Notes under the pieces: model-generated
The model's database searches: none
The model's input: only the letters and a program-made list of their open reading frames with translations
What the model was told of the DNA's origin: nothing
Part shown: in pieces, positions 37,436 through 59,197 of the stretch
Numbering within the stretch: position 1 is the first letter of the stretch
How the letters are laid out: each line of letters opens with the position of its first letter
Position numbers and translations under genes: made by a program
Source: Actinomycetota bacterium
GTDB lineage: Bacteria; Actinomycetota; CADDZG01; WHSQ01
Assembly: GCA_009377815.1 (NCBI GenBank)
Contig: WHTI01000002.1
Location: forward strand, 28,030 to 92,029
Reading direction: 5' to 3'
Length of the DNA: 64,000 nt

Positions 37436-38932
37436 TCAGCGATCACCGTCGAGTACGACGCGGGTGATTATCTTCCGGGCTTGAGGGGGGATGTCCTTAA
37501 CCGTGGTCTCGAGACCAGCGGCCCTGGCATCTTCCAGCAATCCTCGCAGAGCCAAGGCACCCGTGAGATCGACGCGGCCCAGGCCATCGAGGTGGATGAC
37601 GAGCTTCCTTGAGTCCGGATGAGCGACCAAGAGCTCGGTGAAAGTGCGTTCGAGGCCGGGGGAGGAGGCGAAGTAGAGAACCCCCTTAGGCGCGAGATGG
37701 AGTGTTCCATTATCGCTCACCCAAGAAGGTATCGAGAGCCGCAGCTCTCGCAATAGATGTGCCGCGGTCGCCAGGGCCACCCCGACGAGCACACCTCTCT
37801 CGACGTGCGGAGCGAAGGAGACGGTCGCTACGAGGGTTCCGCCCGCGACGAGGAACTGGAGCCGCGCGTACGACCAGTACTCGCGGAAGGGGCGCAGCGA
37901 AAGCATCTCCCGTACCGCAACGATTACCCCGGCTGCGAGCGCAGGTACCGGCAGCGAGGACAGCAGATCCATGAACGGGAGCATGACGAGGACCACAAGT
38001 CCCGTGATCCCTCCTGCCAGACGCGTGGTCGCACCGGCGTCGTGGACCACCGCACTTCGCGTGAACGAGCCGCCGACCGGAAAGCCCCCGCCGATCGCCG
38101 CTGCGAGATTCGCAACGCCCTGGCTCACGAATTCTCGGTTCGGGTTCCATCTTTGCCGGTCGATGGCTGCGTAGTGGCGCGCTATCGCCGCAGGCTCCGA
38201 GAATCCCACGACGGCGATCACCATCGCGGGGATGAGAAGGAGCGGGATCGAAGCCCACGGCAGATCTAGTGAGAGCCGTGGGAAGCTGCCGCCGATCTCT
38301 CCCACGGTGTGACCGGTGTACCCGCCGAGGGCGCCGTACAGCGTCGCGCCCACCACCGCGAGGAGGATCCCCGGGAAGAGCCGGTGGATGCGCTTCCCGG
38401 CCAGGACAACGACGACGGTCGCCATGCCGACGAACAGCGACTGCAAGTGCCACGAGCCCGGTTGCATCAGTGCATTCCATGCGGCCACGAAAGGGTTGGC
38501 GGCGCTACCGGTCGCATATAGAAGGTCGGGGATCTGCGACGCAACGATCACCGCAGCCGCCCCGGTCATGAAGCCCGTGATGACCGGCTGCGAGAGGAGA
38601 TAGACGATCGTCCCTGCGTGGAACGCGCCCAAGAGGATCCTCATAGTCCCTACTAGCAGGGCGAGGAGACCCGCCAGCGCGACGTAATCGAACGATCCCG
38701 GGGCCGCGATCGCGGTGAGCGCGCCCAAGGTCAAGAGAGATGTGATGGCCGTGGGGCCCGTACCAAGATAGGGCGATGACGCGAAGAACGCCGCGGCGAT
38801 GGGGGCCAGTGCGGCAACGTATAGGCCTCGAGCGGGCGGCATCCCGGCAAGCTGAGCGTAGGCAAGGGACTGGGGGATGAGGACGAAAGCTGCGGTGACC
38901 CCAGCCACAAGATCCCCTCGTCCTATCCGCAT
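37436..38932 (-). CDS. SulP family anion (sulfate) transporter with C-terminal STAS domain
   Basis: DLVAGVTAAFVLIPQSLAYAQLAGMPPARGLYVAALAPIAAAFFASSPYLGTGPTAITSLL; C-term KLVIHLDGLGRVDLTGALALRGLLEDARAAGLE STAS. Confidence 0.93.
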   Translation of the reverse strand: MRIGRGDLVAGVTAAFVLIPQSLAYAQLAGMPPARGLYVAALAPIAAAFFASSPYLGTGPTAITSLLTLGALTAIAAPGSFDYVALAGLLALLVGTMRILLGAFHAGTIVYLLSQPVITGFMTGAAAVIVASQIPDLLYATGSAANPFVAAWNALMQPGSWHLQSLFVGMATVVVVLAGKRIHRLFPGILLAVVGATLYGALGGYTGHTVGEIGGSFPRLSLDLPWASIPLLLIPAMVIAVVGFSEPAAIARHYAAIDRQRWNPNREFVSQGVANLAAAIGGGFPVGGSFTRSAVVHDAGATTRLAGGITGLVVLVMLPFMDLLSSLPVPALAAGVIVAVREMLSLRPFREYWSYARLQFLVAGGTLVATVSFAPHVERGVLVGVALATAAHLLRELRLSIPSWVSDNGTLHLAPKGVLYFASSPGLERTFTELLVAHPDSRKLVIHLDGLGRVDLTGALALRGLLEDARAAGLETTVKDIPPQARKIITRVVLDGDR

Positions 38933-42760: not shown

Positions 42761-44416
42761 TCAAGCGAGTGGGACGGCTTGGCCAGCTTGGACGTAGGCG
42801 TGCTCGTGTGCCAGTAATCCGAGGAGGGCGGCGATGGCCCCGATGGGGCCCAGCACCGATGTCTCCAAAGCGACGGCGCACAACACCACTCCAGAGGCGA
42901 AATACCAGCGGAAGCGACCACGCGTCATTTCCCACACCGCGAGAGAGCCATGAGAGGTTGATTCTCCGAGGGTTATCTCTCCCATCGTCATCAACAGATG
43001 TATCCCTGCGCTGACCGCGACGGTGAGGGCGGCCGCCGCACGTGCCCTGGATGGAAGGCCGCCTTGTCCCAGCAGGACCACGGCAGCACTTCCCGCCACG
43101 GTCATTTGAACGAGCAGGTGCGTCGGCAACAACGGGCTCTGCCACAGGTCCCGACCTTTCGATTGGGAAAAGAGGAAAGCGGTGTAGACCGCGGTCATGG
43201 CGCCGAACAAGAGGGCGGGGACCGCCAGGTACCGGATCCACTCGGGTTTGGACAAGATCGAAGCCGTCAGATGAGCGCCGAGTATGAGCCCATAAGCGGT
43301 GATGATGAACGCACCCCGAACCAGCCAGCTGCGCCACTGTGGGCGCGTGAAGATCATGTAGAAACGAAGTGGGTGGGTGAGGTCGGATATCAGGAGCGCT
43401 CCGGTGACGGCGAGGGCGAGAAGTGCCGCCATCGGAGCTACCCAACGAACGAGGTCGGCATCCCAGTCGATGAAGTCGAGAAGGGCAAGCGAAACCGCGA
43501 CGACGTATACGCCGGCGGATATCGACTTCGTCCAGGTGTAGAGGCTGACCCGCCAATCCCACGGCGCCTTGTGGGGGACGTCGTACGAAAGCACGGTGGC
43601 CGCACTCGAGTTCTGCCACGGACCGGGGTGGCCGGATTCAACCCCCTGGGATGATTTACCCTTTCGCCTCTGACTCCACATGTACCCGTCGCCTTCTGGA
43701 CGCCGGGCGGCGAGGGGATCGAGGGTCGTCTGATCGGCGCCCTTATAGAAGACCTTCGGCCGTGTTTCCTTTTCGGGCCGCCGAACCGCGACCGGCTCTC
43801 GGTTCACTATCTGTGAGACTTTCGAGTCGGGATCGTTCAGGTCTCCCACGATGATCGCCTCGACCGGGCACACAACGACGCAAGCGGGTTCCAAACCCAT
43901 GTCGAGCCGATGGGTGCAGAAGTTGCACTTCTCGGCCGAATGATCTTCCGGGTTGATGAAGATCGCATCGTATGGACACGCTGCGATACAGGCCTTGCAC
44001 CCAATACAGATCGACTTGTCGAAATCCACCAGACCGTCCGGCCGGCGATACATCGCTCCGGTTGGGCAGGCCGCCACGCAGGGGGCGTCATTGCACATCG
44101 AACACCGGGTGACCTGGAAGTTGCGTTTGGTCTGGGGGAAGAATCCCGTGTCAACCGACTTCACATAGGTCCGATTCACACCGACCGGTACCTGGTTCTC
44201 GGATTTGCACGCCGTTGTACAGGCGTGGCAACCGATGCAACGGGTTTGATCCAGAACCTTGACCCACTTGAACGGCCGCTCGAGAGTCCCGCCCAGACCC
44301 CCGCCCGAGAGCTCTATGGGGGTCGTGCTCACCACGATCGTCGTGTCATTGAGGCTATTGAGAACACCAGGCAGAGACACACAGGGAGATGATGCGTCTC
44401 TGCCTGGCTGGGTCAT
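42761..44416 (-). CDS. Fused 4Fe-4S ferredoxin-type (SoeB/PsrB-like) and NrfD/DmsC-type membrane anchor (SoeC-like) protein
   Basis: Four Cys clusters (CIGCHACTTAC, CSMCNDAPCVAAC, CIGCKACIAAC, CNFCTHRLDMGLEPACVVVC) followed in the same ORF by about 8 TM helices with LYTWTKSISAGVYVV, LTHPLRFYMIFTRPQWRSWLVRGAFI; MTQ start inferred at 44416. Confidence 0.88.
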   Translation of the reverse strand: MTQPGRDASSPCVSLPGVLNSLNDTTIVVSTTPIELSGGGLGGTLERPFKWVKVLDQTRCIGCHACTTACKSENQVPVGVNRTYVKSVDTGFFPQTKRNFQVTRCSMCNDAPCVAACPTGAMYRRPDGLVDFDKSICIGCKACIAACPYDAIFINPEDHSAEKCNFCTHRLDMGLEPACVVVCPVEAIIVGDLNDPDSKVSQIVNREPVAVRRPEKETRPKVFYKGADQTTLDPLAARRPEGDGYMWSQRRKGKSSQGVESGHPGPWQNSSAATVLSYDVPHKAPWDWRVSLYTWTKSISAGVYVVAVSLALLDFIDWDADLVRWVAPMAALLALAVTGALLISDLTHPLRFYMIFTRPQWRSWLVRGAFIITAYGLILGAHLTASILSKPEWIRYLAVPALLFGAMTAVYTAFLFSQSKGRDLWQSPLLPTHLLVQMTVAGSAAVVLLGQGGLPSRARAAAALTVAVSAGIHLLMTMGEITLGESTSHGSLAVWEMTRGRFRWYFASGVVLCAVALETSVLGPIGAIAALLGLLAHEHAYVQAGQAVPLA

Positions 44417-44441: not shown

Positions 44442-45725
44442 TCACCCGTGGGCGTTTTCGGAGGCGTACTTTTCGGTACGCAGTCGTGCCGTGATCTCGT
44501 GGCCAAGCATCTTCTCGGCCGCCGATAAACGCCCTGCCAGCCCTGCAGTGTCGGTGCTTCCACGCCGGTTGAGCCGATGGGTCGTCACGATCTTCAGGAA
44601 CTTGCTCACGCTCAGGCCGCCCGTGTACCGGGCCGCTCGACGGGTGGGAAGCACGTGATTCGTGCCTATGCATTTGTCGGAGTACACGACGGTCGCCTCC
44701 TCACCCAGGAAGATGGAACCGTAGTTGCGAAGGTTGTCGACGTACCAGTCCAGATCGTCAGTCTGGACCTCGAGATGTTCCGGACCGATCGAATCGCTGA
44801 TAGCGACGCTCTCTTCGCGGCTATCGGCGACCACTATCTGTCCATTCTCTCGCCAGGCGACCTCGGCGATCTCCTTCGTCGGCCAGTCTCTGAGGAGCTG
44901 CTCGACCTTCTCCAGGACCTCCTCGGCCAGCCTTCTGGAGGTGCTGACTAGCACGGCCTCCGATCGGGGGTCGTGCTCCGCTTGACCCAGAAGGTCCGCC
45001 GCGACGATGGAAGGATCGGCCGTTTCGTCGGCGATCACGAGGATCTCTGTGGGTCCGGCCAGGAGATCCACGCCGACCGTACCGAACAACTGACGTTTGG
45101 CTTCGGCTACGAATGCATTGCCTGCACCGGCGATGAAGTCGACAGGCTCGAGGTCGGCAAGAGCCCCATAGGCCATCGAGGCGAGAGCCTGAACGCCTCC
45201 GATGCAATAGATCTCCTCCGCTCCTGCGAGAAACATGGCAGACAGGGTTGCCGGGTTGATACCGTCGCCCCCCGACGGGGGACCCATAGCAATGACCTCT
45301 TTCACACCGGCGACACGCGCTGTACCGATGGTCATGAGGGCGGAGACGATGAGGGGGTAACGGCCACCCGGCGTATACGACCCGGCTCTCCCGATGGGGA
45401 TGACGCGTTGACCCAGCCACACCCCCGGTCGAACGTTCTCCTCGAAGTCCTCGAACTGCTCTCGTTGACGCTGTGCGAAGGCGCGGATATGCGAGAGAGC
45501 GAGTTCGATGTCTTCGAGCAGGATGCGAGAGAGTGACTTCAGCGCTCGATGGATCTCTTCCTGACTGACCCGGAAGGATGGAGGATCCCATTTATCGAAC
45601 TTCAGTGAGTAGCGTCGAACAGCGTCCTCGCCGTTCGTCCTGACGTCATCCAGGATCTCCGTCACCACTTGCTTGATATGAGAGTCATCCTCGTTGATCC
45701 GAGTACTCTCCTTCAGATACTCCAA
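44442..45725 (-). CDS. HisD-superfamily dehydrogenase, HpsN-like (sulfopropanediol 3-dehydrogenase candidate)
   Basis: PIGRAGSYTPGGRYPL, AGAGNAFVAEAKRQLFGTVGVDLLAGPTEILVIAD, QAEHDPRSEAVLVS, GPEHLEV, DKCIGTNHVLPTRRAARYTGGLSVSKFLK; no other his genes nearby. Confidence 0.82.
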   Translation of the reverse strand: MEYLKESTRINEDDSHIKQVVTEILDDVRTNGEDAVRRYSLKFDKWDPPSFRVSQEEIHRALKSLSRILLEDIELALSHIRAFAQRQREQFEDFEENVRPGVWLGQRVIPIGRAGSYTPGGRYPLIVSALMTIGTARVAGVKEVIAMGPPSGGDGINPATLSAMFLAGAEEIYCIGGVQALASMAYGALADLEPVDFIAGAGNAFVAEAKRQLFGTVGVDLLAGPTEILVIADETADPSIVAADLLGQAEHDPRSEAVLVSTSRRLAEEVLEKVEQLLRDWPTKEIAEVAWRENGQIVVADSREESVAISDSIGPEHLEVQTDDLDWYVDNLRNYGSIFLGEEATVVYSDKCIGTNHVLPTRRAARYTGGLSVSKFLKIVTTHRLNRRGSTDTAGLAGRLSAAEKMLGHEITARLRTEKYASENAHG

Positions 45726-45746: not shown

Positions 45747-46523
45747 CTAAGAAATGGTCCATCCGCCATCGACAACAAGTGTGTGACCGGTGATCTGGCG
45801 GGCGCCGGGCGTTACCAGGAATCCGACCGCGTGAGCGATGTCTTCCGGTTCGGCCAGACGGCCCAGCGGGATGTGGGCAAGGATCTCTCGTCGGCCGCTT
45901 TCAGACTTCAGCGCGTTGGCCGTCAGATCCGTTTCGACGAACGTGGGTGCGACGGCGTTGACGGTTATGTCGTGGCGCGCCAGCTCGAATGCCAGCGACC
46001 TCGTAAGCATGATTAACGCGGATTTGCTGGCAGAGTAAGGAGCTCGGCTATCCAGTGCCACAAGTCCCGCTTGAGATGCGATGTTCACGATCGTGCCCCT
46101 GCACTCCGCCTGGATCATTGCGGTGGCGACAGCTTGGGACATGAAGAACGGACCCTTGAGGTTCGTATCCATGATCCAGTCCCAGGTTTCCTCGTCCACC
46201 TCGAGGGCCGATTGCAGACGATTTACCCCTGCGTTGTTCACCAGTATGTCTAGTCGTCCCTCGGCTGCGATCACTTCTTCGACGCATCGCTGCACCGAGT
46301 CGACGCTTCTAACGTCTAGCTCGTGAGGAACGGTGTCGAGATCCCGCGCGAGCAGGTCCGCTCGCTCCTTCTCTCGACTGGTGATCACGACGCGTGCACC
46401 TAGGTCGTGCAGTTCGCGCGCAACCGATGCTCCGATGCCGCGGCTCGCACCGGTGACCAGCGCCACCAAGCCATCGAGGCGCGAGTGCGAACGTGCCGTT
46501 TCGGTACTTGCCTGAGCTTCCAT
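45747..46523 (-). CDS. SDR family oxidoreductase (HpsO/HpsP-like candidate)
   Basis: GLVALVTGASRGIGASVARELHDLGA, NNAGVN, YSASKSALIMLTRSLAFELARHDITVNAVAP; start inferred at 46523. Confidence 0.85.
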   Translation of the reverse strand: MEAQASTETARSHSRLDGLVALVTGASRGIGASVARELHDLGARVVITSREKERADLLARDLDTVPHELDVRSVDSVQRCVEEVIAAEGRLDILVNNAGVNRLQSALEVDEETWDWIMDTNLKGPFFMSQAVATAMIQAECRGTIVNIASQAGLVALDSRAPYSASKSALIMLTRSLAFELARHDITVNAVAPTFVETDLTANALKSESGRREILAHIPLGRLAEPEDIAHAVGFLVTPGARQITGHTLVVDGGWTIS

Positions 46524-46622
46524 AATGCGGAAGAGTATTTCACCAGTGGGCAAGGTCGTGCAAGAGTGTTCCTGAGACATCGCGGCGGCGTCGGCTCAAC
46601 GAGCAAGGAGAGCGAGTGTTGC

Positions 46623-47771: not shown

Positions 47772-48578
47772 ATCAGGAAGACCGCTGCGAAATCCATAAC
47801 CAAGAGCGATTCCACACGGACCGATGGCACCCAGGCGATTCGCCGTGCCCTGTCTGTCATGGAACTCTTCATGCAGGGACAACCCGACTTAAGCATCAGT
47901 GAGATCGCCGGAACACTGAAGCTCAGCCCCAGCACGATTCATCGGATAGTGAGGGCCCTGGTAGCGCACGGGTTCCTCAATCAGGATACCCACACCGATC
48001 GCTACTACCTCGGTCGTTCTGCAGTTCTGCTGGGACAGATGGCGCAACACATCTTTGCCTTCGAGCGCATAGTCCCTCTCCTCGACCACCTCGCACAGGA
48101 GACCGGTGAGTCGGTCAATCTCGGTGTACGAGAGGGGAAGTTTGCGATGGTCATGTTCCGAGTCGAGTCGCTACAACCGCTGCGCTTCAACGAGCCGCCG
48201 GGCACCCTGGTCCCCTTGCATTGTTCCGCGATGGGCAAGGCGCTCCTCGCATCTAGCGAGGACCCGGCGGCTGAGGTGTCAGCGCTGACAACGCTCTCAC
48301 GACAGACTCCCAACACGATCGTTCGCAAGGACGACCTACTCGCCGAGCTCAAGCAGACCCGCCGCCGCGGATTCAGTCTCGACAACGAGGAGAGCTTCCC
48401 CGGTGCCCGCTGCGTCGGAGCCGCCGTGCCTAGGCCCGGTGAGGATGCCCGAATGGCCGTCGCGGTTCAAGCGCCTACGGTCAGGTTGTCCGTCCGTGAT
48501 GCAAAGCAACTGGGGCCGAGGGTTATGGATCTTGCCAAACGGATCGCCGAGATAATCCCGGCCGACCGCACGATATAG
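47772..48578 (+). CDS. IclR-family transcriptional regulator (SuyR-like position); start uncertain (47859 ATG or upstream non-canonical codon)
   Basis: QAIRRALSVMELFMQGQPDLSISEIAGTLKLSPSTIHRIVRALVAHGFL wHTH; LPHCSAMGKALLAS IclR effector-domain pattern. Confidence 0.88.
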   Translation: MRKTAAKSITKSDSTRTDGTQAIRRALSVMELFMQGQPDLSISEIAGTLKLSPSTIHRIVRALVAHGFLNQDTHTDRYYLGRSAVLLGQMAQHIFAFERIVPLLDHLAQETGESVNLGVREGKFAMVMFRVESLQPLRFNEPPGTLVPLHCSAMGKALLASSEDPAAEVSALTTLSRQTPNTIVRKDDLLAELKQTRRRGFSLDNEESFPGARCVGAAVPRPGEDARMAVAVQAPTVRLSVRDAKQLGPRVMDLAKRIAEIIPADRTI

Positions 48579-48781
48579 AGATCCGAAGCGGGTCTACAGG
48601 CTCTCCGTCCGACGCGGTTCATCGAAGGAATCGCTCCGGTGCTACAGGATCATTTGGACCGCTCCGTCGTTCACCACCAAACGGTTTCACGCGCGACTTC
48701 GATCTGACCTCTGTGTCAATCATCTTCGATCCTCAAACAACGGTAGACAACGGCCGAGCGATTGCCTATCCTTCCCACTAT

Positions 48782-49615
48782 ATGAAGGTGAGTTCACGAT
48801 ACGGAATGCACGCCGAGAGGGGATCGAACAGTCGCGCGGCAGCGGGAGCCGCCTGGAGATCCTCAAGGGGAATGCTGATAGCAGCAGTACTCATTGTCGT
48901 GGCGTGGGAGTTGGTCGCGCGCTCCAGCCTATTCAATGACCTGCTCTTTCCAAACATCGAGACGACCGCGGAAGCGTTCTGGGACTTGACAAGTTCGGGA
49001 GTGATGGTGAGTGACACCGTGGCGACGCTCGGTCGGTTGATTCTCGGATTCATCATCGGAGCATCCATCGGAGTCTTGTTGGGACTCGTCACGGGGAGAT
49101 TGAGCGTGGCCGAGGAGATGCTGATCCCCCTGGTTCTCTTGCTGCTTCCACTTCCTGCTCTTGCGTTGATGCCTCTCCTCACCATCTGGTTTGGCGTCGG
49201 CGGGACTGCGACCGTGATCCTGGTTGCCTTCTCCTCGGCTTTGCCGGTAGCTGTTAACACCTGGGGAGGGGTCAAAGGGGTGAAGCCTCTTCTGATCCAA
49301 GCTGCAGAGTCGATGCGCGTGAGGGGCCGTCCCTTGTTTAGGAAGGTCATCCTCCCTGCCTCTCTGCCATCGGTGATCACCGGTCTGCGTATCGGTCTGT
49401 CCACCGCGTGGAGGGCGGTCATCGCCGGTGAGCTGATCTCTGCAGCCTCAAGTGGCCTCGGGATCAGGCTCTTCAGCGCTCGGGAGTTTCTGAGGACGGA
49501 CAGGGTCTTCGCCGTGATGATCGTGATCGCCGTCATCGGACTCCTCGTCGAGCGAACGGTGTTCATCCGCATCGAACGAGCAACACTGGTTCGCTGGGGA
49601 ATGGTGAGCGACTGA
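48782..49615 (+). CDS. ABC transporter permease, SsuC/TauC/NrtB-like
   Basis: ELVARSSLFNDLLFPNIETTAEAFWDL, LPALALMPLLTIWFGVGGTATVILVAFSSALPVAVNTWGGVKGV. Confidence 0.9.
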   Translation: MKVSSRYGMHAERGSNSRAAAGAAWRSSRGMLIAAVLIVVAWELVARSSLFNDLLFPNIETTAEAFWDLTSSGVMVSDTVATLGRLILGFIIGASIGVLLGLVTGRLSVAEEMLIPLVLLLLPLPALALMPLLTIWFGVGGTATVILVAFSSALPVAVNTWGGVKGVKPLLIQAAESMRVRGRPLFRKVILPASLPSVITGLRIGLSTAWRAVIAGELISAASSGLGIRLFSAREFLRTDRVFAVMIVIAVIGLLVERTVFIRIERATLVRWGMVSD

Positions 49616-50478
49616 TGTGGAGGAGCGCGGTCGGGCGCTCGAAGGACCTCGCAAGGTCGCTTCGCGGCCCCCTTGCTTCCTTCGTCATCATCATTGTCTG
49701 GTGGGAGTTGCTCTCGAGGTCCGGCTGGTTCAATCCGCTGTTCATCCCGTCAGTCGGAGAGATCGGAAGCAGGTTCGTCGAGCAGTTGACGAGTGATGTG
49801 TTCTGGAACCACGTCTACTCCAGCCTGGTCCGCCTCGGAATTGGATTCCTACTGGCGGTGCTGGCCGGCGTAGTACTCGGCGCGGCTATGGGCCGTATCC
49901 GCTGGTTCGAGGAAGTGGCGAGCCCGATCGTCTCGCTGCTCTACCCGATCCCTTCGGTAGCGCTGATCCCGCTGTTCATGTTGTGGTTCGGACTCGGTGA
50001 CCGCACGACGCTGGCTCTAGTGATCTTCTCGTCGACCCTTCCCATCGCAGTGGTCACGTGGGCGGGGATCAAAGGCGTGGACCCGACGCTGATCCGCGCG
50101 AGCGAATCGATGAATGTTCGCGGGAGACATCTGGTACTCCGAGTCGTGATTCCAGGTGCACTACCCCAGGTCATCACGGGCCTAAGACTTGGCTTCGCTC
50201 AGGCATGGCGCGCGGTGATCGCGGGTGAACTGATCGCTTCAACCACAGCAGGCCTTGGGCTCCTCCTATTCACCTCTCGGAGGTTCATCGATATCCCGAC
50301 CATGATCTCCACTCTCGTCGTCATCGCGGCACTGTCCCTCGTGTTCGAAAGGCTGCTGTTTGCGCGGTTAGAGAGCGCCACGGTCATGAAGTGGGGAATG
50401 GTGAAATTGACCCGCCATACCGCTCGAGTTGTGGAAACCCCGGCGGCTGCCGGGAGTCAGGCGGGCGCTATGGGTTGA
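49615..50478 (+). CDS. ABC transporter permease, SsuC/TauC/NrtB-like (second permease)
   Basis: ELLSRSGWFNPLFIPSVGEIGSRFVEQL, IPSVALIPLFMLWFGLGDRTTLALVIFSSTLPIAVVTWAGIKGVDPTLIRASESM. Confidence 0.9.
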   Translation: MWRSAVGRSKDLARSLRGPLASFVIIIVWWELLSRSGWFNPLFIPSVGEIGSRFVEQLTSDVFWNHVYSSLVRLGIGFLLAVLAGVVLGAAMGRIRWFEEVASPIVSLLYPIPSVALIPLFMLWFGLGDRTTLALVIFSSTLPIAVVTWAGIKGVDPTLIRASESMNVRGRHLVLRVVIPGALPQVITGLRLGFAQAWRAVIAGELIASTTAGLGLLLFTSRRFIDIPTMISTLVVIAALSLVFERLLFARLESATVMKWGMVKLTRHTARVVETPAAAGSQAGAMG

Positions 50479-50590
50479 CTGCACCGCTGTCGCTTGTGGG
50501 TGGGTACTGCATCGCGGTAATGCCGGTTAAGCCGATAGGGGAGGCGAAGGAATGTCATTCATTCAGAGATCAAGAACTTGGTTTCGAACG

Positions 50591-51583
50591 ATGAGTAGGA
50601 CGGCGACTGTTCTGTTGGCAGTCGTAGCATTGACCGCAGCAGCGTGCGGTTCGGATTCGGACGGTGGATCTGGTGGGGAGGGTGGCGACGATCTGATCTC
50701 GATCAAGGTGGGTGGTCAGGCTTCGATCACCGGTTCCGTCGACATGATCGGGTTGGAGAAGGGTTTCTTTGAAGAGGAGGGGCTCGATGTCGAACTGATT
50801 CGCCTCTCCAGCGGCAAGGAAGTACGAGACGCGTTGATCTCGGGTTCCGTCAACGTCGGAGGAGTTGCCCCGGCGCCCTTCGCTGCTGCGGCGAGCAGTG
50901 GCGAACTCCTTGCGATAGCAACGTTGGGATTGATCGGTGATTCCGTGGCGGTACTGGCGGGCGCCGATTCTGGGATCGAAACCCTCGAAGACCTCAAGGG
51001 CAAGAAGGTGGGGTCGCAGGAGGGCTCTTCGTCAGAGCTGATCTTCCTCGGGAAGGTTCTCCCGAGTGTTGGCTACAGCGCCGACGACGTAACGATGGTG
51101 AACACCGAAGAAGCCGACCATCCCGCCGTCTTGGCGAGCGGCCAGGTTGATGCGGTCATTGCCAACGAACCGTTCATCAGCATCGCCGAGCAGGAGGGCA
51201 TCGGTTACATCGTGACCCCTTACACCCCCTTCGACCCATTCCCGAACCTGGTCCTCGGACAGCGAGGCTATGTTGACGACAATGGAGAGGCGGTTCAGCG
51301 CTACGTCACGGCTCACGTCAAGACGATGCAGTGGATGGCCGAGAACACGGAGGAGGCGGTAGAAATCATCGTGGCGGACCTGTCGGCTCAAGGGGTCGAT
51401 CTTGAGCCCGATATCGTCGCCAGCGCCCTCGGCAAGGTCAATCTCACGCCCGAGTTCCCGAGCGATCTCGCGGAGTATCTGAGCGAGACCTTCCAGCTTC
51501 TTGCGGGGGCCGGACAGGTCGAGGGCGATGAGCCGAACTGGTCGGACATGATCGAGCCCAAGTTCCTGGACGAAGCTCTATAA
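50591..51583 (+). CDS. ABC transporter substrate-binding lipoprotein, SsuA/TauA/NMT1-like
   Basis: LLAVVALTAAACGSD lipobox; VGGQASITGSVDMIGLEKGFFEEEGLDVELIRLSSGKEVRDALISGSVNVGGVAPAPF. Confidence 0.88.
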   Translation: MSRTATVLLAVVALTAAACGSDSDGGSGGEGGDDLISIKVGGQASITGSVDMIGLEKGFFEEEGLDVELIRLSSGKEVRDALISGSVNVGGVAPAPFAAAASSGELLAIATLGLIGDSVAVLAGADSGIETLEDLKGKKVGSQEGSSSELIFLGKVLPSVGYSADDVTMVNTEEADHPAVLASGQVDAVIANEPFISIAEQEGIGYIVTPYTPFDPFPNLVLGQRGYVDDNGEAVQRYVTAHVKTMQWMAENTEEAVEIIVADLSAQGVDLEPDIVASALGKVNLTPEFPSDLAEYLSETFQLLAGAGQVEGDEPNWSDMIEPKFLDEAL

Positions 51584-51585
51584 CT

Positions 51586-52428
51586 ATGGCTAATGCAAAG
51601 ATGGAAGGAGGCCGCTCGATGGGCAATCGCTCGATGGGCGAGCGACCGTCCTCCCCCGATGATCTGGTGGTCTCCATCGAGTCGCTGTCATTCCGGTACG
51701 ACGACGCGCTCGTCCTCGACAACATCAGCTTCGATGTCGAGAGAGGAGAGTTCGTCGCGATCATCGGCCCCAGCGGGTGCGGGAAGTCGACCCTGCTGGG
51801 GATCTTGGCCGGTTTCCTGCCCCTCGATAGCGAAACGGTGGCTATCGAGGGGCAGCGACCCAGCTCGCATTCTCTGAAGCGAGGCGTCGTTTTTCAAGAT
51901 TATGGACTCTTTCCGTGGCGCACCGCGGTGCGGAACATCGAGTTCGCGCTCGAGGGTACGAAGCGCGTCTGGACCGGTTCCCGAGCGGCGAAGGAGGAGC
52001 GGCGCGAGCGTGCGATGCAGTTGCTGAGCATGGTGGGCCTCGAGAACCATGCATCGACTTATCCCCATCAGCTCTCGGGAGGGATGAAGCAACGGGTGGC
52101 GATCGCTCGAGCACTGGCCTGCGACCCCGATCTGCTCTTGATGGACGAGCCGTTAGGGGCTCTGGACGCACTTACGCGTGAGTCCCTCATCGACCAGATC
52201 GGGAGCATCGTTCAAGCCAGCGACCAGACGGTCGTGTACGTGACTCACAACGTAGTGGAGGCCGTCACCCTTGCGGATCGTGTGGTGGTGTTTCGGGCCA
52301 ACCCTGGGCGGATCGAAGGCATCGTTGAAGTCCCCTTACCACGACCCAGGGACGCGCTTGCGGATGAAGTCGTGGAGTTGGAAAGAGAAATCAGGCGACT
52401 TCTCGGGGCAGGAGAGTCGTCCGCCTGA
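51586..52428 (+). CDS. ABC transporter ATP-binding protein, SsuB/TauB-like
   Basis: GPSGCGKSTLLGILAGFL, VFQDYGLFPWRTAVRNIEFAL, LSGGMKQRVAIARALACDPDLLLMDEPLGALD. Confidence 0.93.
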   Translation: MANAKMEGGRSMGNRSMGERPSSPDDLVVSIESLSFRYDDALVLDNISFDVERGEFVAIIGPSGCGKSTLLGILAGFLPLDSETVAIEGQRPSSHSLKRGVVFQDYGLFPWRTAVRNIEFALEGTKRVWTGSRAAKEERRERAMQLLSMVGLENHASTYPHQLSGGMKQRVAIARALACDPDLLLMDEPLGALDALTRESLIDQIGSIVQASDQTVVYVTHNVVEAVTLADRVVVFRANPGRIEGIVEVPLPRPRDALADEVVELEREIRRLLGAGESSA

Positions 52429-52476
52429 GGTTCGGTTTGATCACAGATCTTGATCAGATCCTTAGGAAGGAGAAGG

Positions 52477-52758
52477 GTGGAGCATTCGTTCTTGATCCAT
52501 CATGCAGGTGATCTCGTCGGGGTGGCGGTGAAGGACATCCCCGCCGATCAGGAGGTGGTCGGCGTCGAGATGGATACTGGCGACGTGGTCAAAGTCGTAA
52601 CGAGGGCGCCGGTGTTGCTCGGCCACAAGGTCGCCCTGGCGGAGATCAACAAGGGTGACGACGTCATCAAGTACGGGAAACGGATCGGGCACGCCACCGA
52701 GCCCATCAAGGTAGGAGACCATGTCCACACCCACAACCTGAGGAGCGCTCGGTGGTAG
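52477..52758 (+). CDS. suyA: UxaA N-terminal/SAF-domain protein; (2R)-sulfolactate sulfo-lyase small subunit
   Basis: HHAGDLVGVAVKDI, LLGHKVALAEINKGDDVIKYGKRIGHATEPIKVGDHVHTHNLRSARW; stand-alone small ORF paired with SuyB-like ORF. Confidence 0.85.
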   Translation: MEHSFLIHHAGDLVGVAVKDIPADQEVVGVEMDTGDVVKVVTRAPVLLGHKVALAEINKGDDVIKYGKRIGHATEPIKVGDHVHTHNLRSARW

Positions 52759-53906
52759 ACACGCTGACTGGATATCGCAGGGACAACGACAGGGTTGGTG
52801 TTCGCAACCACGTAGCGATCATCCCGGTCGACGACATCTCGAATGCCGCGGTGGAGAAGATCGCAGCGCTCATCCCAGGCACTCTTCCGCTGCCGCACGC
52901 TTACGGACGTCTTCAGTTCGGTGACGATCTGGAGCTGACCTTCCGCACGCTGATAGGGACCGGCGCGAACCCAAACGTGGGAGCCGCCATCGTCGTTGGG
53001 ATCGAACCGGTGTGGACTGAGCGGATCGCGGAGGAGATCGCCAAGACGGGCAAACCGGTCGAAGCGTTCGCGATCGAGCGTCACGGAGACCTTAGGACCG
53101 CGGAGGCGGCGGCCCGGTCGGCTCAGAAGATGCTGCAGGACGTGTCGGGGATGGCTCGTGTCCCCGTCGATCTGAACGAGATCTGGGTGAGTATCAAGTG
53201 CGGTGAATCCGATACGACAACGGGCCTGGCTTCGTGTCCTACGGTTTCGCGGGTTGTCGATAGGGTCGTCGAGGCGGGCGGAACCGTCTTCTTCGGAGAG
53301 ACGTCGGAGCTGACCGGTGGCGAGCAGTTGATCGAGCAGCGGTGCGAGACCGACGATGTCCGCGACCGATTCAAGAAGACTTACAACGACTACATCGCGA
53401 TGATCGAAGAACAGGACGCGGACCTCTTCGGATCGCAGCCGACAGAGGGCAATGTCCGCGGCGGCCTGACTACGATCGAAGAGAAGGCCCTGGGCAACAT
53501 CGCGAAGACGGGAACGGTTCCGGTGGTGGATGTGCTGGCACCGGCTGAGGCCCCCAAGAAGGCCGGCCTCAACTTCATGGACACCTCTTCGGCGGCCGCT
53601 GAGTGCGTAACGCTGATGGCCGCTGCTGGTGCGGTCATACACCTTTTTCCGACGGGCCAGGGGAACGTGATCGGGAACCCAATCGTTCCGGTTGTGAAAC
53701 TCAGCGGTAACCCGTTGACCGTTGAGACGATGAGGGAGCACATCGATCTCGATGTCTCTGGGTTGCTCAGTCGGCAGTTCGGCCTCGACGCCGCCGGAGA
53801 GCAGCTGCTCAATGTCGTCCGAGCGACCGCCAACGGCCGTCTAACCGCAGCGGAATCGCTGGGCCATCGAGAGTTCGTGATGACCAAGCTCTATCGGAGT
53901 GCCTGA
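52752..53906 (+). CDS. suyB: UxaA C-terminal family protein; (2R)-sulfolactate sulfo-lyase large subunit
   Basis: GYRRDNDRVGVRNHVAIIPVDDISNAAVEKIA, LPLPHAYGRLQFGDDLELTFRTLIGTGANPNVGAAIVVGIEP, KCGESDTTTGLASCPTVSRV, GETSELTGGEQL, GLTTIEEKALGNIAKTG, FPTGQGNVIGNPIVPVVKLSGNP, RLTAAESLGHREFVMTKLYRSA. Confidence 0.9.
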   Translation: MVDTLTGYRRDNDRVGVRNHVAIIPVDDISNAAVEKIAALIPGTLPLPHAYGRLQFGDDLELTFRTLIGTGANPNVGAAIVVGIEPVWTERIAEEIAKTGKPVEAFAIERHGDLRTAEAAARSAQKMLQDVSGMARVPVDLNEIWVSIKCGESDTTTGLASCPTVSRVVDRVVEAGGTVFFGETSELTGGEQLIEQRCETDDVRDRFKKTYNDYIAMIEEQDADLFGSQPTEGNVRGGLTTIEEKALGNIAKTGTVPVVDVLAPAEAPKKAGLNFMDTSSAAAECVTLMAAAGAVIHLFPTGQGNVIGNPIVPVVKLSGNPLTVETMREHIDLDVSGLLSRQFGLDAAGEQLLNVVRATANGRLTAAESLGHREFVMTKLYRSA

Positions 53907-53953: not shown

Positions 53954-54949
53954 GTGACGGACAAGGTGCGGCTGGCGTCGATCGGCCTCGGTTGGTGGGG
54001 GAACGAGCTGGCGAGCGCTGCCGGCCGCGCCGGCGTGGAGATCGTTTCGTGCTTCGCGAGATCCGCGGTAGCGCGCGATCGATTCGCTGAGACACACGGC
54101 TGTCGAACGGCCGAATCACTGGAGAGCCTCCTCGCGGACGCTGATGTCGAGGGCGTTCTGATCGCGACGCCCCATTCGACGCGCGTCTCCGTGATCGAGG
54201 CCGCCGCGGAGGCAGGCAAACACATCTTCGTAGAGAAACCGATGGCGCTCACCTACCGGGACGGAAGGGCCTCGGTGGACGTCGCCGATAGGGCAGGTGT
54301 GATCCTCCAAGTAGGGCACAACCGACGTCGGCAACCGGCGATCCGGAGGATCAAGTCGATGATCGACGGCGGCGAGATCGGGATCGTCCATCACGCCATG
54401 GCCGATCTCTCCTATGCCAAGGGGCAACGGCCCCGCCCCGGCTGGCGCGGGGATCCCGCCGAAAGTCCGGCCGGGGGCATGACGGGACTCGGAGTGCACA
54501 TGATCGACAGCCTCATCTATCTGTTCGGCGATATTCAGCGTCTCGCGGCCTTCAGTAAACAGATCCTGCAGGCAAGCCTCTTGGACGAGATCACGACCAT
54601 CATGCTCGAGTTCTCATCGGGCCCGCTCGGGACCATAGTGATATCCACCGTGACGCCCGAGAGAGCAATGGTTGCCGTCTTCGGGACCGAGAAGGCGGCC
54701 TGGAGCGAAGGCGACGGTACCCGTTTCCTCGTCCAGAGTGTGGCCGAGACCACTCCCACCGAGTTGCCGGTCGAGGTGGCAGACACGTTGCAAGAGGAAC
54801 TCACTGAGTTCGCACGGTGCATCCGAGACGGAACGCGTCCGGAAGTGGGAGGCGCCGAAGGACTGAAGGTGGTCCAGACCCTTGAAGCGGTCACGAGGAG
54901 TGTCCGCGACGCGCGGATCATCGAGCTAGACGAGATCGCGGCAGGTTGA
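53954..54949 (+). CDS. Gfo/Idh/MocA family oxidoreductase
   Basis: VRLASIGLGWWGNELASAAGRAG, GVLIATPHSTRVSVIEAAAEAGKHIFVEKPMALT. Confidence 0.92.
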   Translation: MTDKVRLASIGLGWWGNELASAAGRAGVEIVSCFARSAVARDRFAETHGCRTAESLESLLADADVEGVLIATPHSTRVSVIEAAAEAGKHIFVEKPMALTYRDGRASVDVADRAGVILQVGHNRRRQPAIRRIKSMIDGGEIGIVHHAMADLSYAKGQRPRPGWRGDPAESPAGGMTGLGVHMIDSLIYLFGDIQRLAAFSKQILQASLLDEITTIMLEFSSGPLGTIVISTVTPERAMVAVFGTEKAAWSEGDGTRFLVQSVAETTPTELPVEVADTLQEELTEFARCIRDGTRPEVGGAEGLKVVQTLEAVTRSVRDARIIELDEIAAG

Positions 54950-55110
54950 TTCGTCGCGGTTTCTTGGGCCAGAGAGTTGCACGTATGCGTGAATATGGAA
55001 TAGGCTTGCACGATGCGGGATGAGTCCGCTGAGCCACCATCTGTGGTTCTGAGACCTGAACCGAGCACGTTCGCACGACGCGAGCGTCCGATCGAAGGGG
55101 AGGATCCGCT

Positions 55111-55956
55111 GTGCCGATATTGCCGAACGTGAGATACGAAGACATGACTTGGCCCGATCTCAAGAAGGCGGCAGAGCAAGATGCAGTCATCGTTCAGCCG
55201 GTCGGGGCCATCGAGCAGCATGGTCCTCACCTCCCGGTTTCGACGGACACCATGCAGGTCAACAACGCGACTTTCCTCGCTTGTGCGGAGGCCGCCGAAC
55301 AGATCCCAGTTCTGCTTGCCCCGACGGTTCACTGGGGCTTCTCCACGATCCAGATGGACATCCCGAACGAGGACAAGGATCGCTATCCGGGCACACTGAC
55401 CCTCACTGCGCAGCTGCTGATGGACCTGTGCGTCCAGTTGAGCCAGTGTTTTGTACGCGCCGGGTTCAAGCGGATTCTCTTCGTCAACGGTCATGGCGGT
55501 AACTACCAGCCGCTCATGACGGTTGCCCGGACGATCAGGGATCTCACGGATGCGATGGTCGGAGTTGCTAACTACTATGGACTCGTTGAGGTTAAAGACA
55601 TGCTCGATGTCCCCCTTGAGGAAGCCTCGATCAAGCACGCCGGTGAGTGGGAGACATCCCTCGCACTCTTGTGGGACGCCGACAATGTGCGTATGGATCA
55701 GATCAAGAGTGAGCAGCGTGCGATCAACGCAATCAAGGTCAACTCCGAGTACGTCAGCAGGGATGAACTAGGTGGAAAGCAGTACTCCACAAAGGCATTC
55801 GTTGCCGAGAAGAACATCGACTTTTCGTTCGAAGGCGTCGTGGGGAACCCCGCTCAGGGCTCGGCGGAGAAGGGTCAGAAGTTCGCAGATCTCCATGTGG
55901 CCTCGATTGTCGAGTTCCTGCTCGAGTTCAAGAAATGGGAGTACGGAAAACTCTAG
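55111..55956 (+). CDS. Creatininase family amidohydrolase
   Basis: YEDMTWPDLKKAAEQDAVIVQPVGAIEQHGPHLPVSTDT, FVNGHGGNYQPLM, HAGEWETSLAL. Confidence 0.92.
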   Translation: MPILPNVRYEDMTWPDLKKAAEQDAVIVQPVGAIEQHGPHLPVSTDTMQVNNATFLACAEAAEQIPVLLAPTVHWGFSTIQMDIPNEDKDRYPGTLTLTAQLLMDLCVQLSQCFVRAGFKRILFVNGHGGNYQPLMTVARTIRDLTDAMVGVANYYGLVEVKDMLDVPLEEASIKHAGEWETSLALLWDADNVRMDQIKSEQRAINAIKVNSEYVSRDELGGKQYSTKAFVAEKNIDFSFEGVVGNPAQGSAEKGQKFADLHVASIVEFLLEFKKWEYGKL

Positions 55957-56052
55957 AGCTTCAAGTCTTTCCGGCATCTTGCTCCCACGAGGGGTTGCGT
56001 TTTCGGCGCCCGGATCTCAGTTACGGGCAACCAGTGAAGGCGGGAGAAACCG

Positions 56053-56808
56053 TTGTTACTAGAGAAGGCAGGTACGACTCGGCCGATCCTTGGCGGTTTC
56101 ATCAAGAGCAGTTCACCGTGGCTGGTTGAGGTCCTCGGAGTGCTGGGATTCGACCTGGTCATCATCGACACCGAACACGGGATGATCGGCCTGCGGGATT
56201 GCGAAGAACTAGTTCGAGCCGCGGATGCGACCCAGATCCTCTCTCTCATCAGGGTGGCAAGCGCGGACCCGATCAATATCCTGCGCCTCGCGGAGACCGG
56301 GCCGGATGGGATCGTCGTCCCGCGGGTACGGACGGCCGAGGACGTGAAGGAATCGTCCGATGCCGTTCGCTACCCGCCAGAGGGTGCGCGGGGACTGGGG
56401 AGATCCCGCGCTGCAAACTTCGGCGCCCAGGGTGCGCTCGGCGACTACGTCAAGGCGATAAACGCAAAAATGACGGTCACGGCGATAGTCGAGGACGCCG
56501 AAGGATTGGCGGCGGTGGACGAGATCGCAGCTGCACCGGGCCTGGACATGCTCTTTACGGGCAGCGTTGATATGTCGGTCTCCCTGGGGGTCCCGGGGCA
56601 GCTCGGTCACCCTAGCGTCCTCGACGCCAACAAGAAGATCGTCGAGGCCGGGAAGAAGGCCGGGAAGCTGGTTGGGGGCTTGGCGGCGACTTTCGAGGAG
56701 GTCACCTCTCTTTTGGACGAAGGCGACCTGGATGTGATCTGCGTGCCGACCGAAAGTATCGTGGTGGAGCACCTCAAACAGATTCGAGCCCTGGTTCCGT
56801 CGCGATAA
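56053..56808 (+). CDS. HpcH/HpaI family class II aldolase
   Basis: VLGFDLVIIDTEHGMIGLRDCEELVRAAD, PDGIVVPRVRTAEDVKESSDAVRYPPEGARGLGRSRA, GSVDMSVSLGVPGQLGHPSV. Confidence 0.9.
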   Translation: MLLEKAGTTRPILGGFIKSSSPWLVEVLGVLGFDLVIIDTEHGMIGLRDCEELVRAADATQILSLIRVASADPINILRLAETGPDGIVVPRVRTAEDVKESSDAVRYPPEGARGLGRSRAANFGAQGALGDYVKAINAKMTVTAIVEDAEGLAAVDEIAAAPGLDMLFTGSVDMSVSLGVPGQLGHPSVLDANKKIVEAGKKAGKLVGGLAATFEEVTSLLDEGDLDVICVPTESIVVEHLKQIRALVPSR

Positions 56809-57827
56809 TGCTCATGCACGCCACCGACGTCGATGGAGGACGGACCAGGTTTGGTCTCTACGTGAGGTCCCAGCATCCGCGTCATGAAGACAGATCGGCG
56901 TCCTGGGAAGAACTACTGCGAACCGTCGACCTCGCGGTGAACTACGGGTTCCAGTCCATCCTTGTAGGTGAGCATTACATAGCCCCTGGGGCTGATTGCT
57001 TCCCGCCTCTTCTTCTTCTCGCGCGTCTTTCCGCATCAACGGGGGAGATGACCCTCGGCACCAGCGTTGCCCTTTCGAACTTCCGTCATCCCATCGAACT
57101 GGCTTCGGCGGGTGCGTTCCTTGATCTCCTAACCAAGGGCAACTTCGTCCTGGGGGTCGGCACCGGTTTCCGTCGGGAAGAGTACGCAGCGTTCGGGGTG
57201 GATTTCGATACGCGCCTGCCGCGACTGGTCGAAGGGACGCGCCTGTTGAGGCGGTTGTGGTCCGAGGATGCAGTCTCTTCCACCGGAGGCCACTTCGTGG
57301 TGAAGGACGCGATCTGCAGCGTCAAGCCGTATCGCGCATCTGGTCCCCCGATATGGATGGGTGCCACATCTCCGAAAGGAGTACGAGTAGCGGCCGAGCT
57401 GTGTGACGCCTGGATCATCGATCCCCTTTCCGGCGATCTCGTCGTTGGCCAACTCCAAGCCATCTATCGGGAAGAACTCCGGAAGCTGGAGAAGCCACCA
57501 CCCCAGGAGATCCCCCGGGTGGTGGATGTCTTCGTGGCCCCCTCGCGGGAGCTGGCGCTGGAACGTTCGTTCGCCGTCCTCGCTCAGAAGAGGGGTGCGT
57601 CGATGAGGGCCCGAGGGGCAGAGGTGTCCGGAGAACGAGCGGTGGAGGGGGCCATCCTGGGATCTCCCCAAACTGTGATCGAGGGACTTCAACACCAGAT
57701 CGATTCGTTCGGAATCACGCACTTCAGCGTGCGGATGTCTGGGCCCGGCATCGATCCGAAGCATCTCAGAGAATCCGTGTTTCTCTTTGGGACTGAGGTG
57801 CTGCCTGGGTTCCGCGATCGATCGTGA
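56808..57827 (+). CDS. LLM-class oxidoreductase
   Basis: YGFQSILVGEHYIAPGADCFPPLLLLARLSA, LTKGNFVLGVGTGFRREEYAAFGVDFDTRLPRLVEGTRLLRRLW, PPIWMGATSPKGVRVAAELCDAWI. Confidence 0.9.
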   Translation: MLMHATDVDGGRTRFGLYVRSQHPRHEDRSASWEELLRTVDLAVNYGFQSILVGEHYIAPGADCFPPLLLLARLSASTGEMTLGTSVALSNFRHPIELASAGAFLDLLTKGNFVLGVGTGFRREEYAAFGVDFDTRLPRLVEGTRLLRRLWSEDAVSSTGGHFVVKDAICSVKPYRASGPPIWMGATSPKGVRVAAELCDAWIIDPLSGDLVVGQLQAIYREELRKLEKPPPQEIPRVVDVFVAPSRELALERSFAVLAQKRGASMRARGAEVSGERAVEGAILGSPQTVIEGLQHQIDSFGITHFSVRMSGPGIDPKHLRESVFLFGTEVLPGFRDRS

Positions 57828-59197
57828 CCGAGATCTGGGAGATGAGCGCCGCCGAACTGCTACGCGGTTACTTGGACGGTGGGTTATCTCCGGTAGACGC
57901 GGTTGATGCCTGCTTCGGTCGGATCGAGTCCCTCAACGACCGGCTCGGTGCCTTCACTGTCGTGACCGCCGAACGTGCCCGCGCCGAGGCCCTCGAGCGA
58001 ACGACCGAACTGGCCGCAGGGGATCTTCGGGGCCCGCTCCACGGGATCCCGATTGCGGTTAAGGAGCTGTTCGACCTTGCCGGGGTGGAGACGACCTACG
58101 GGTCCGACGTCTTCTGTGGCCACATCCCCGAACGAGATGCCTTTGCGGTGGCTGCGCTCCGGAAGGCCGGCGCTATCGTGCTTGGCCTCACCCGGACTCA
58201 TGAGTTCGCCTGGGGTATCACTACCGTGCACGAGACCCGCGGGGCGGCGAGGAACCCGTATGCGACGGACCGCATAGCGGGGGGCTCCAGCGGCGGGTCG
58301 GCGGTAGCGGTCGCAACCGGGATGGCTCCGCTCGCGCTAGGAAGCGACACCGGCGGTTCGATCAGAATCCCCGCCGCATTGTGCGGCATCACCGGGATCA
58401 AGCCGAGCTTCGGTTCCATCGACACCTCCGGAGTCTGTCCGTTGGCACCGACACTTGATCACATCGGAACTCTGGCACGTACCGTCGAGGACGCTGCCGA
58501 GGCGCTCTCGCTGATATCTGACATACGGGTCCCTCAATGGCGGGACGATCTCTTAGACGTGACCGTGGTGTGCGCACCCGACCTCCACGTCGTCGGACCC
58601 CAGAGCGACCACCTCACGGTTTTCGGTGATGCGCTCGCTGTGATCGAGGATCTTGGGGCGACCCTCGAGGAGCGGGGTTATTCAGGAGCGGAAACGATCT
58701 ATTCGGTCTATTCGACCCTCCAGGGACATGAGGCTTACGAGGCCCACACCGATCTGCTCGGGACCTTTCCGAATCGAATTGCCGACTATTCGACCGCTGC
58801 CCGCGGGAACCTCGAAATCGCGAGTGAGATCAGCGACGCTGACTTCATCGAGGCAGTCGCCGAGCGCCTCCGGATTCGGGAACGATTCCATGCCCTGCTC
58901 CGGGACGCGGACGTGCTCGTGACCCTAGTGGCTGGGGGCCCACCGTCGACGGTCGCTCGCCCGGACACCGGGACGCTCGAGGGCGCCGACATTTCCTTCC
59001 GGAACCTCGTGCTGCCCTACACCGTGCCTCAGGATATGACCGGCTTCCCTGCAGTTGCGGTACGTGCCGGGACCGACGACCTCGGGATTCCGGTCGGCAT
59101 ACAGTTCACAGCCCTGCAGGGAAGAGATGATCTAGCCATGATTGCCGCCCGAGCTTTCCAGCGTGCGGTTCCCAGTGGGTGGCCGTCGATCCATTGA
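57824..59197 (+). CDS. Amidase (amidase signature family)
   Basis: GPLHGIPIAVKELFDLAGVETTYGS, GGSSGGSAVAVATGMAPLALGSDTGGSIRIPAALCGITGIKPSFGSI. Confidence 0.94.
   Translation: MTEIWEMSAAELLRGYLDGGLSPVDAVDACFGRIESLNDRLGAFTVVTAERARAEALERTTELAAGDLRGPLHGIPIAVKELFDLAGVETTYGSDVFCGHIPERDAFAVAALRKAGAIVLGLTRTHEFAWGITTVHETRGAARNPYATDRIAGGSSGGSAVAVATGMAPLALGSDTGGSIRIPAALCGITGIKPSFGSIDTSGVCPLAPTLDHIGTLARTVEDAAEALSLISDIRVPQWRDDLLDVTVVCAPDLHVVGPQSDHLTVFGDALAVIEDLGATLEERGYSGAETIYSVYSTLQGHEAYEAHTDLLGTFPNRIADYSTAARGNLEIASEISDADFIEAVAERLRIRERFHALLRDADVLVTLVAGGPPSTVARPDTGTLEGADISFRNLVLPYTVPQDMTGFPAVAVRAGTDDLGIPVGIQFTALQGRDDLAMIAARAFQRAVPSGWPSIH

Follow-up and report, generated by a model that had tools for sequence, protein, structure and literature searches.

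The 64-kb stretch of DNA analyzed here (the window) carries on its minus strand a gene whose single stop-free frame (42761–44416, translated to 551 aa) joins an iron–sulfur domain to an NrfD-type membrane anchor (Table 1). The gene is the third in a co-directional run of six that encode, in order of transcription, an SDR dehydrogenase, a HisD-like dehydrogenase, the fusion, a molybdenum-dependent A subunit starting 9 bp past the fusion gene, a TorD-like chaperone and a SulP permease, the last two 32 bp apart. A divergent group on the plus strand leads from an IclR-family regulator through an ABC transporter to the subunits SuyA and SuyB; the latter was located inside the window through its PF04295 match in a profile search of the whole genome.

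Table 1. Genes and protein domains at the locus (positions in the window)
Feature	Position	Strand	Remarks
SulP anion (sulfate) permease + STAS domain	37436–38932	−	Last gene of the co-directional run
TorD/NarJ-type chaperone, PF02613	38965–39840	−	11-bp overlap with A gene
A subunit, Mo-bisPGD oxidoreductase, 973 aa	39830–42751	−	Without Tat signal
BC fusion protein, 551 aa	42761–44416	−	4×[4Fe-4S] FeS domain + NrfD-type 8-TM anchor
NrfD/PsrC-like membrane domain	42764–43570	−	Residues 283–551, invariant Asp345 and Ser363
Interdomain linker	43571–43732	−	Residues 229–282, pLDDT low
FeS (PsrB/NrfC-like) domain	43733–44266	−	Residues 51–228, 16 invariant Cys
HisD-family dehydrogenase	44442–45725	−	46% to HpsN of Cupriavidus pinatubonensis; 25 bp upstream of fusion
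SDR dehydrogenase	45747–46580	−	39% to HpsO; 21 bp upstream of HisD-like gene
IclR-family regulator	47859–48578	+	Head of divergent gene group
SsuA/SsuC-type (sulfonate-like) ABC transporter	48713–52428	+	Two permeases, binding protein, ATPase
SuyA, small SAF-domain subunit, (R)-sulfolactate sulfo-lyase	52450–52758	+	
SuyB, large subunit, sulfolactate sulfo-lyase	52752–53906	+	58–68% to SuyB of known clusters

The preliminary description of this DNA had claimed four Cys clusters followed, without a stop, by about eight NrfD-like helices, and profile matches, Cys conservation and structure prediction all agree with it. A Pfam scan placed both domains in the same protein, Fer4_11 at residues 100–192 (E 4e-22) and NrfD (PF03916) at residues 283–517 (58 bits against a cut-off of 25.8), the anchor half matching NrfD and not DmsC. 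The cluster cysteines are residues 60/63/66/70, 105/108/113/117, 137/140/143/147 and 164/167/179/183, and none of these 16 ligands of the four [4Fe-4S] clusters varies across the 65 fused homologues compared. Matches in NCBIfam and PDB assigned the N-terminal half to NrfC/TtrB/PsrB/ArrB-like proteins; Foldseek likewise related it to PsrB and ArrB, and related the C-terminal half to ActC, an NrfD-family subunit, which together with the Pfam match excludes a C-terminal half unrelated to NrfD/DmsC. AlphaFold2, run on a shallow alignment of 20 sequences, predicted eight long helices in the stretch from residue 288 to residue 550, most of it with high pLDDT, and modeled the FeS half poorly. As the fusion is conserved only from residue ∼46–50, the exact start codon is uncertain. 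Covalent joining of B and C is predicted to fix their stoichiometry.

We scanned one genome per species for homologues and found 67 loci encoding the fusion, at best-segment identities of 47–71%, in at least seven phyla (Actinomycetota, Gemmatimonadota, Acidobacteriota, Chloroflexota, Binatota, Deinococcota, Myxococcota and others). The survey of homologues and their neighbors suggested in the preliminary description thus revealed a conserved and common family that is not peculiar to the source genome. Apart from truncated loci and a small number with frameshifts, B and C share one frame everywhere and A follows directly; across loci this A is the same molybdopterin subunit of ∼970 aa without a Tat signal, and 51 of the 67 include a TorD-like chaperone. 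The fusion is present in ∼38 of 397 genomes of the source phylum and in 49 of 193 genomes of the class that includes a Vicinamibacterales MAG discussed below, and it is plasmid-borne in Rhodococcus jostii RHA1, Thermomicrobium roseum and haloarchaea. The fused form is old and widely distributed among bacteria of soil and sea, and some archaea have it too; a limited search confined to open-licence literature returned no published description of it. The origin of the fusion in a sequencing error that removed a stop or start between the domains is excluded by these 67 independent loci and by further genomes encoding it. An assembly or frameshift artefact joining two genes retains a practically negligible probability: such errors do occur, since in a MAG from the genus of the source organism (L031, L075) the gene is frameshifted near residue 424, in its NrfD part, but the fused loci include isolates (Microlunatus, Mycolicibacterium, Amycolatopsis) and complete plasmids. 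We hold it nearly certain that the B–C architecture is real. One fused cassette, 64% identical, was found in a MAG titled Klebsiella pneumoniae (L005, CAMBFS010000094.1), an organism label that is probably wrong.

The A subunit has FeS-cluster cysteines at positions 71/74/78/108 and a putative molybdenum ligand, Cys199, all of them invariant in 59 sequences. The closest catalytic model in NCBIfam was PhsA, which scored far below its cut-off. No nitrate-reductase gamma subunit, a link to nitrate respiration, was found in the genome. Several actinobacterial and haloarchaeal cassettes (L013, L026, L027, L045, L064, L089 and L091) have an Mrp/NBP35 ATPase after the A or the TorD-like gene, possibly an FeS-insertion factor for the fused enzyme.

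That the FeS part faces the cytoplasm along with a catalytic subunit lacking Tat, also proposed from the sequence alone, was borne out across the family. A Tat-like motif was present in 0 of 58 A partners, and none was found in any of the fused proteins themselves. When the anchor loops were assigned for an N-in topology, the fused proteins had on average 11.6 Lys and Arg residues inside versus 1.9 outside; the excess inside was at least +6 in every fused member, as against −3 to −8 in all seven unfused anchors (TtrC, the ArxC-like protein, Sulfurovum and four from related genomes). With the narrower loop boundaries of the AlphaFold model, the separation persisted (fused mean +7.7, unfused −4 to +1). 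Among the unfused relatives, the A subunit is nearly always of the Tat type, with one exception (L110). Two further apparent exceptions were rejected: L109, seemingly fused with the opposite charge, consists of two genes in different frames, and the A subunit on the Sulfurovum plasmid only appears to have no Tat motif, since the gene is frameshifted and a different frame shortly upstream encodes an SRRSF motif. This unfused relative (Sulfurovum mangrovi plasmid, L105, 4093–9175) has separate B and C genes and a sulfate adenylyltransferase nearby.

Across these sequences, fusion goes along with loss of the Tat signal and with a reversed charge bias. Neither soluble part has an export signal, and the fusion holds the FeS domain to the anchor by a covalent link; the NrfD module is therefore very probably inverted in the membrane in comparison with PsrC, TtrC and ArxC. 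For SoeC, inversion has only been hypothesized, from the location of SoeAB (PMC8076601). The fused family provides comparative evidence that an NrfD module can take the opposite orientation in the membrane, a point that matters for energy conservation through its quinone site and ion half-channels.

SuyAB splits sulfolactate into sulfite and pyruvate in the cytoplasm. Sulfite is toxic, and it is made inside the cell when sulfonates or persulfides are broken down. The SuyA and SuyB genes of the window are adjacent, encode split SAF and GD_AH subunits of a predicted sulfo-lyase and are 39–48% and 58–68% identical, respectively, to those of Rhodococcus koreensis, Paracoccus seriniphilus and the hps-suy cluster of C. 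pinatubonensis. The last of these (SuyA 39%, SuyB 58%) has the order hpsRNOUPsuyAB (PMC11382572) and shares with our locus an HpsO-like SDR and an HpsN-like HisD-family enzyme; it differs in the motif of the latter, GRYPL in the source protein, and is itself without a sulfite dehydrogenase. The source genome encodes another SuyB, 79% identical, on contig C480 (L096), near a sulfate-exporter-like gene.

We then looked at the neighborhoods of the cassette in other genomes, using as an approximate control 40 random 16-kb stretches, all from the source phylum. Of 73 loci, 19 had a persulfide dioxygenase-type gene close to the cassette, versus 1 of 40 random stretches (P = 0.0009), and 13 had SulP, versus 2 (P = 0.046); DsrE (8 versus 1) and TusA (6 versus 0) were not significant alone. 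Any one of persulfide dioxygenase, SulP, DsrE, TusA and SuyB was present in 27 of 73 loci, compared with 4 of 40 (P = 0.0014). A recognized sulfur neighbor was seen in 20 of 49 loci of at least 14 kb, and most loci have none. Individual cases include the Vicinamibacterales MAG (L017) with the order TauE, Ldh_2, SuyA, SuyB and fusion, where the fusion starts 7 bp past the SuyB stop; R. jostii plasmid pRHL3, where genes for DsrE and TusA precede the fusion gene RHA1_RS43840 and the A gene RHA1_RS43835, with MBL-fold hydrolases, a rhodanese protein and ArsR also encoded in the vicinity; and a haloarchaeal copy with TauE and a rhodanese-domain protein upstream. Linkage of SuyAB to the fusion was limited to two cases, the MAG and the source window, in the latter at a distance of 8 kb and on the opposite strand. 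This linkage is the strongest functional evidence for the cassette.

These neighbors, the subunit types and the deduced orientation make it likely that the fusion and its A subunit form a membrane-bound, cytoplasm-facing (N-side) sulfite:quinone oxidoreductase working like SoeABC; that sulfite is the substrate has the same good probability. Cytoplasmic sulfite, which SuyAB would generate from sulfolactate at this locus and persulfide dioxygenase would supply in other genomes, would be oxidized to sulfate at the Cys-ligated molybdenum center of A; the complex, with its NrfD module upside down and its FeS domain cytoplasmic, would pass the electrons to quinone, and the sulfate might leave through SulP. 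We infer all three of substrate, quinone acceptor and SulP export. Counting against the sulfite:quinone reading are the few SuyAB linkages, the lack of a recognized sulfur neighbor at most loci, the Asp-type anchor and the ArxABC-like nearest cassette, the last two described below, and three other molybdoproteins of the SUOX family (PF00174) encoded in the genome on contigs C102, C481 and C228 (L097–L099), which could oxidize sulfite instead. One of the three (L098) has an MBL-fold/rhodanese-like gene close by, and a second route of sulfite oxidation is possible.

The complex could also be an ordinary SoeABC, orthologous to the enzyme of Allochromatium vinosum and Aquifex aeolicus, in which soeB and soeC are merely fused. 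The two agree in an A subunit that carries Mo-bisPGD and a single FeS cluster and lacks a Tat signal, a four-cluster B domain, an NrfD-superfamily anchor, a predicted N-side location, sulfite-producing neighbors and sulfite as the likely substrate. They differ in that soeB and soeC are separate genes and B and C are fused in all cassettes here, and in the quinone site. The TMH2 quinone-site residue of the fused anchor, Asp345, and Ser363 at the pocket entry are both invariant and align to TtrC Asp75 and Ser93, the Asp being shared by all 65 fused proteins; the published residue at this position, from which the difference is taken, is His65 in SoeC of Aquifex and DmsC (PMC8076601). The Pfam match to NrfD instead of DmsC points the same way. 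The fused form is also found chiefly in Actinomycetota, Acidobacteriota, Gemmatimonadota, Chloroflexota and haloarchaea, whereas a published survey of SoeC lists Proteobacteria, Clostridia and Aquificae only. An ordinary SoeABC is, on this evidence, unlikely. With its quinone-site Asp, the fused anchor is more like the Asp-type NrfD/TtrC/PsrC group than like SoeC, and the complex appears to be a fused, Asp-type variant, not simply a SoeC with a linker.

Somewhat less probable again is that the complex faces the cytoplasm and dehydrogenates thiosulfate, a persulfide/polysulfide, a sulfonate intermediate or some other sulfur compound. Neighboring genes for TusA, DsrE and persulfide dioxygenase would suit such an enzyme, as would PhsA being the nearest catalytic model, its low score aside. 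SuyAB and persulfide dioxygenase, however, share one product, cytoplasmic sulfite, which favors sulfite over other sulfur substrates, and the adjacency of SuyAB and fusion in the Vicinamibacterales MAG points to sulfite as well.

A periplasmic respiratory enzyme of the Psr/Ttr/Arr/Arx kind is suggested by sequence kinship. The nearest annotated unfused cassette looks like an ArxABC arsenite oxidase, its A subunit being 32% identical, and the B domain of the fusion is 44% identical to TtrB; these systems share the A–B–C module and the quinone-site Asp and Ser. They nevertheless have separate B and C genes, a Tat-exported A and the opposite loop charges and membrane orientation. The absence of Tat from A and fusion in every member and loop charges opposite to those of ArxC and TtrC make a periplasmic enzyme very improbable. 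The Arx-like genes in question, on plasmid pAZKH of Azoarcus sp. KH32C (L092), encode B, NrfD, A and TorD beside arsenite efflux genes. The fused group formed one clade against the sampled unfused sequences in the A-subunit tree (100/100), from which Sulfurovum was left out and in which the unfused branches were long; in the B-domain tree, the unfused Sulfurovum sequence fell at the base of the fused group and a single fused clade was not resolved.

Formate dehydrogenases have a His directly after the Mo-ligand (Se)Cys. The A subunits have Ser200 in this place in 59 of 59 cases, and the NCBIfam models of formate dehydrogenase scored far below their cut-offs on A. A formate:quinone oxidoreductase like FqoABC is similarly hard to sustain, even though Fqo has been reported from Actinobacteria and FqoC shares with the fused anchor the eight TMHs and the quinone-site Asp (PMC8076601), as FqoB and FqoC are described as separate subunits.

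Fusion within such modules has a parallel in Alternative complex III, which also has an NrfD-family anchor (ActC). There, ActB unites an A-like part with the FeS part and not B with C and has no molybdenum cofactor, and the function of the complex is another. It is conceivable, if on balance slightly doubtful, that the fused cassettes represent a second lineage of cytoplasmic sulfite:quinone dehydrogenases, distinct from SoeABC and descended from a Psr/Ttr/Arx-type enzyme through anchor inversion, loss of Tat export and B–C fusion, and that many Actinomycetota, Acidobacteriota, Gemmatimonadota and haloarchaea rely on it as their main sulfite oxidase. The disposal of sulfite by many soil actinobacteria and acidobacteria is poorly documented; the fused cassette is a candidate route, and suyAB next to it offers a testable genetic setting.

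The HisD-like dehydrogenase upstream of the fusion matches neither HpsN nor HisD. Identity with HpsN was ruled out by the motif, HpsN having GRY(A/S)H with the sulfonate-binding His126, and the role of the true HisD of the genome was rejected because a better-scoring copy lies on contig C377. The protein keeps a Lys next to the active-site Asp and represents a third class (GRYPL with SDK), neither canonical HisD nor canonical HpsN; our guess is that it acts on a related sulfonated alcohol. Similar proteins are found in Arthrobacter (L101) and Klebsiella (L100, annotated as hpsN). Downstream of SuyB, the plus strand continues (53954–59197) with genes for a GFO/IDH/MocA oxidoreductase, a creatininase-family protein, an HpcH/HpaI aldolase, a luciferase-like monooxygenase and an amidase, which look like a catabolic group.
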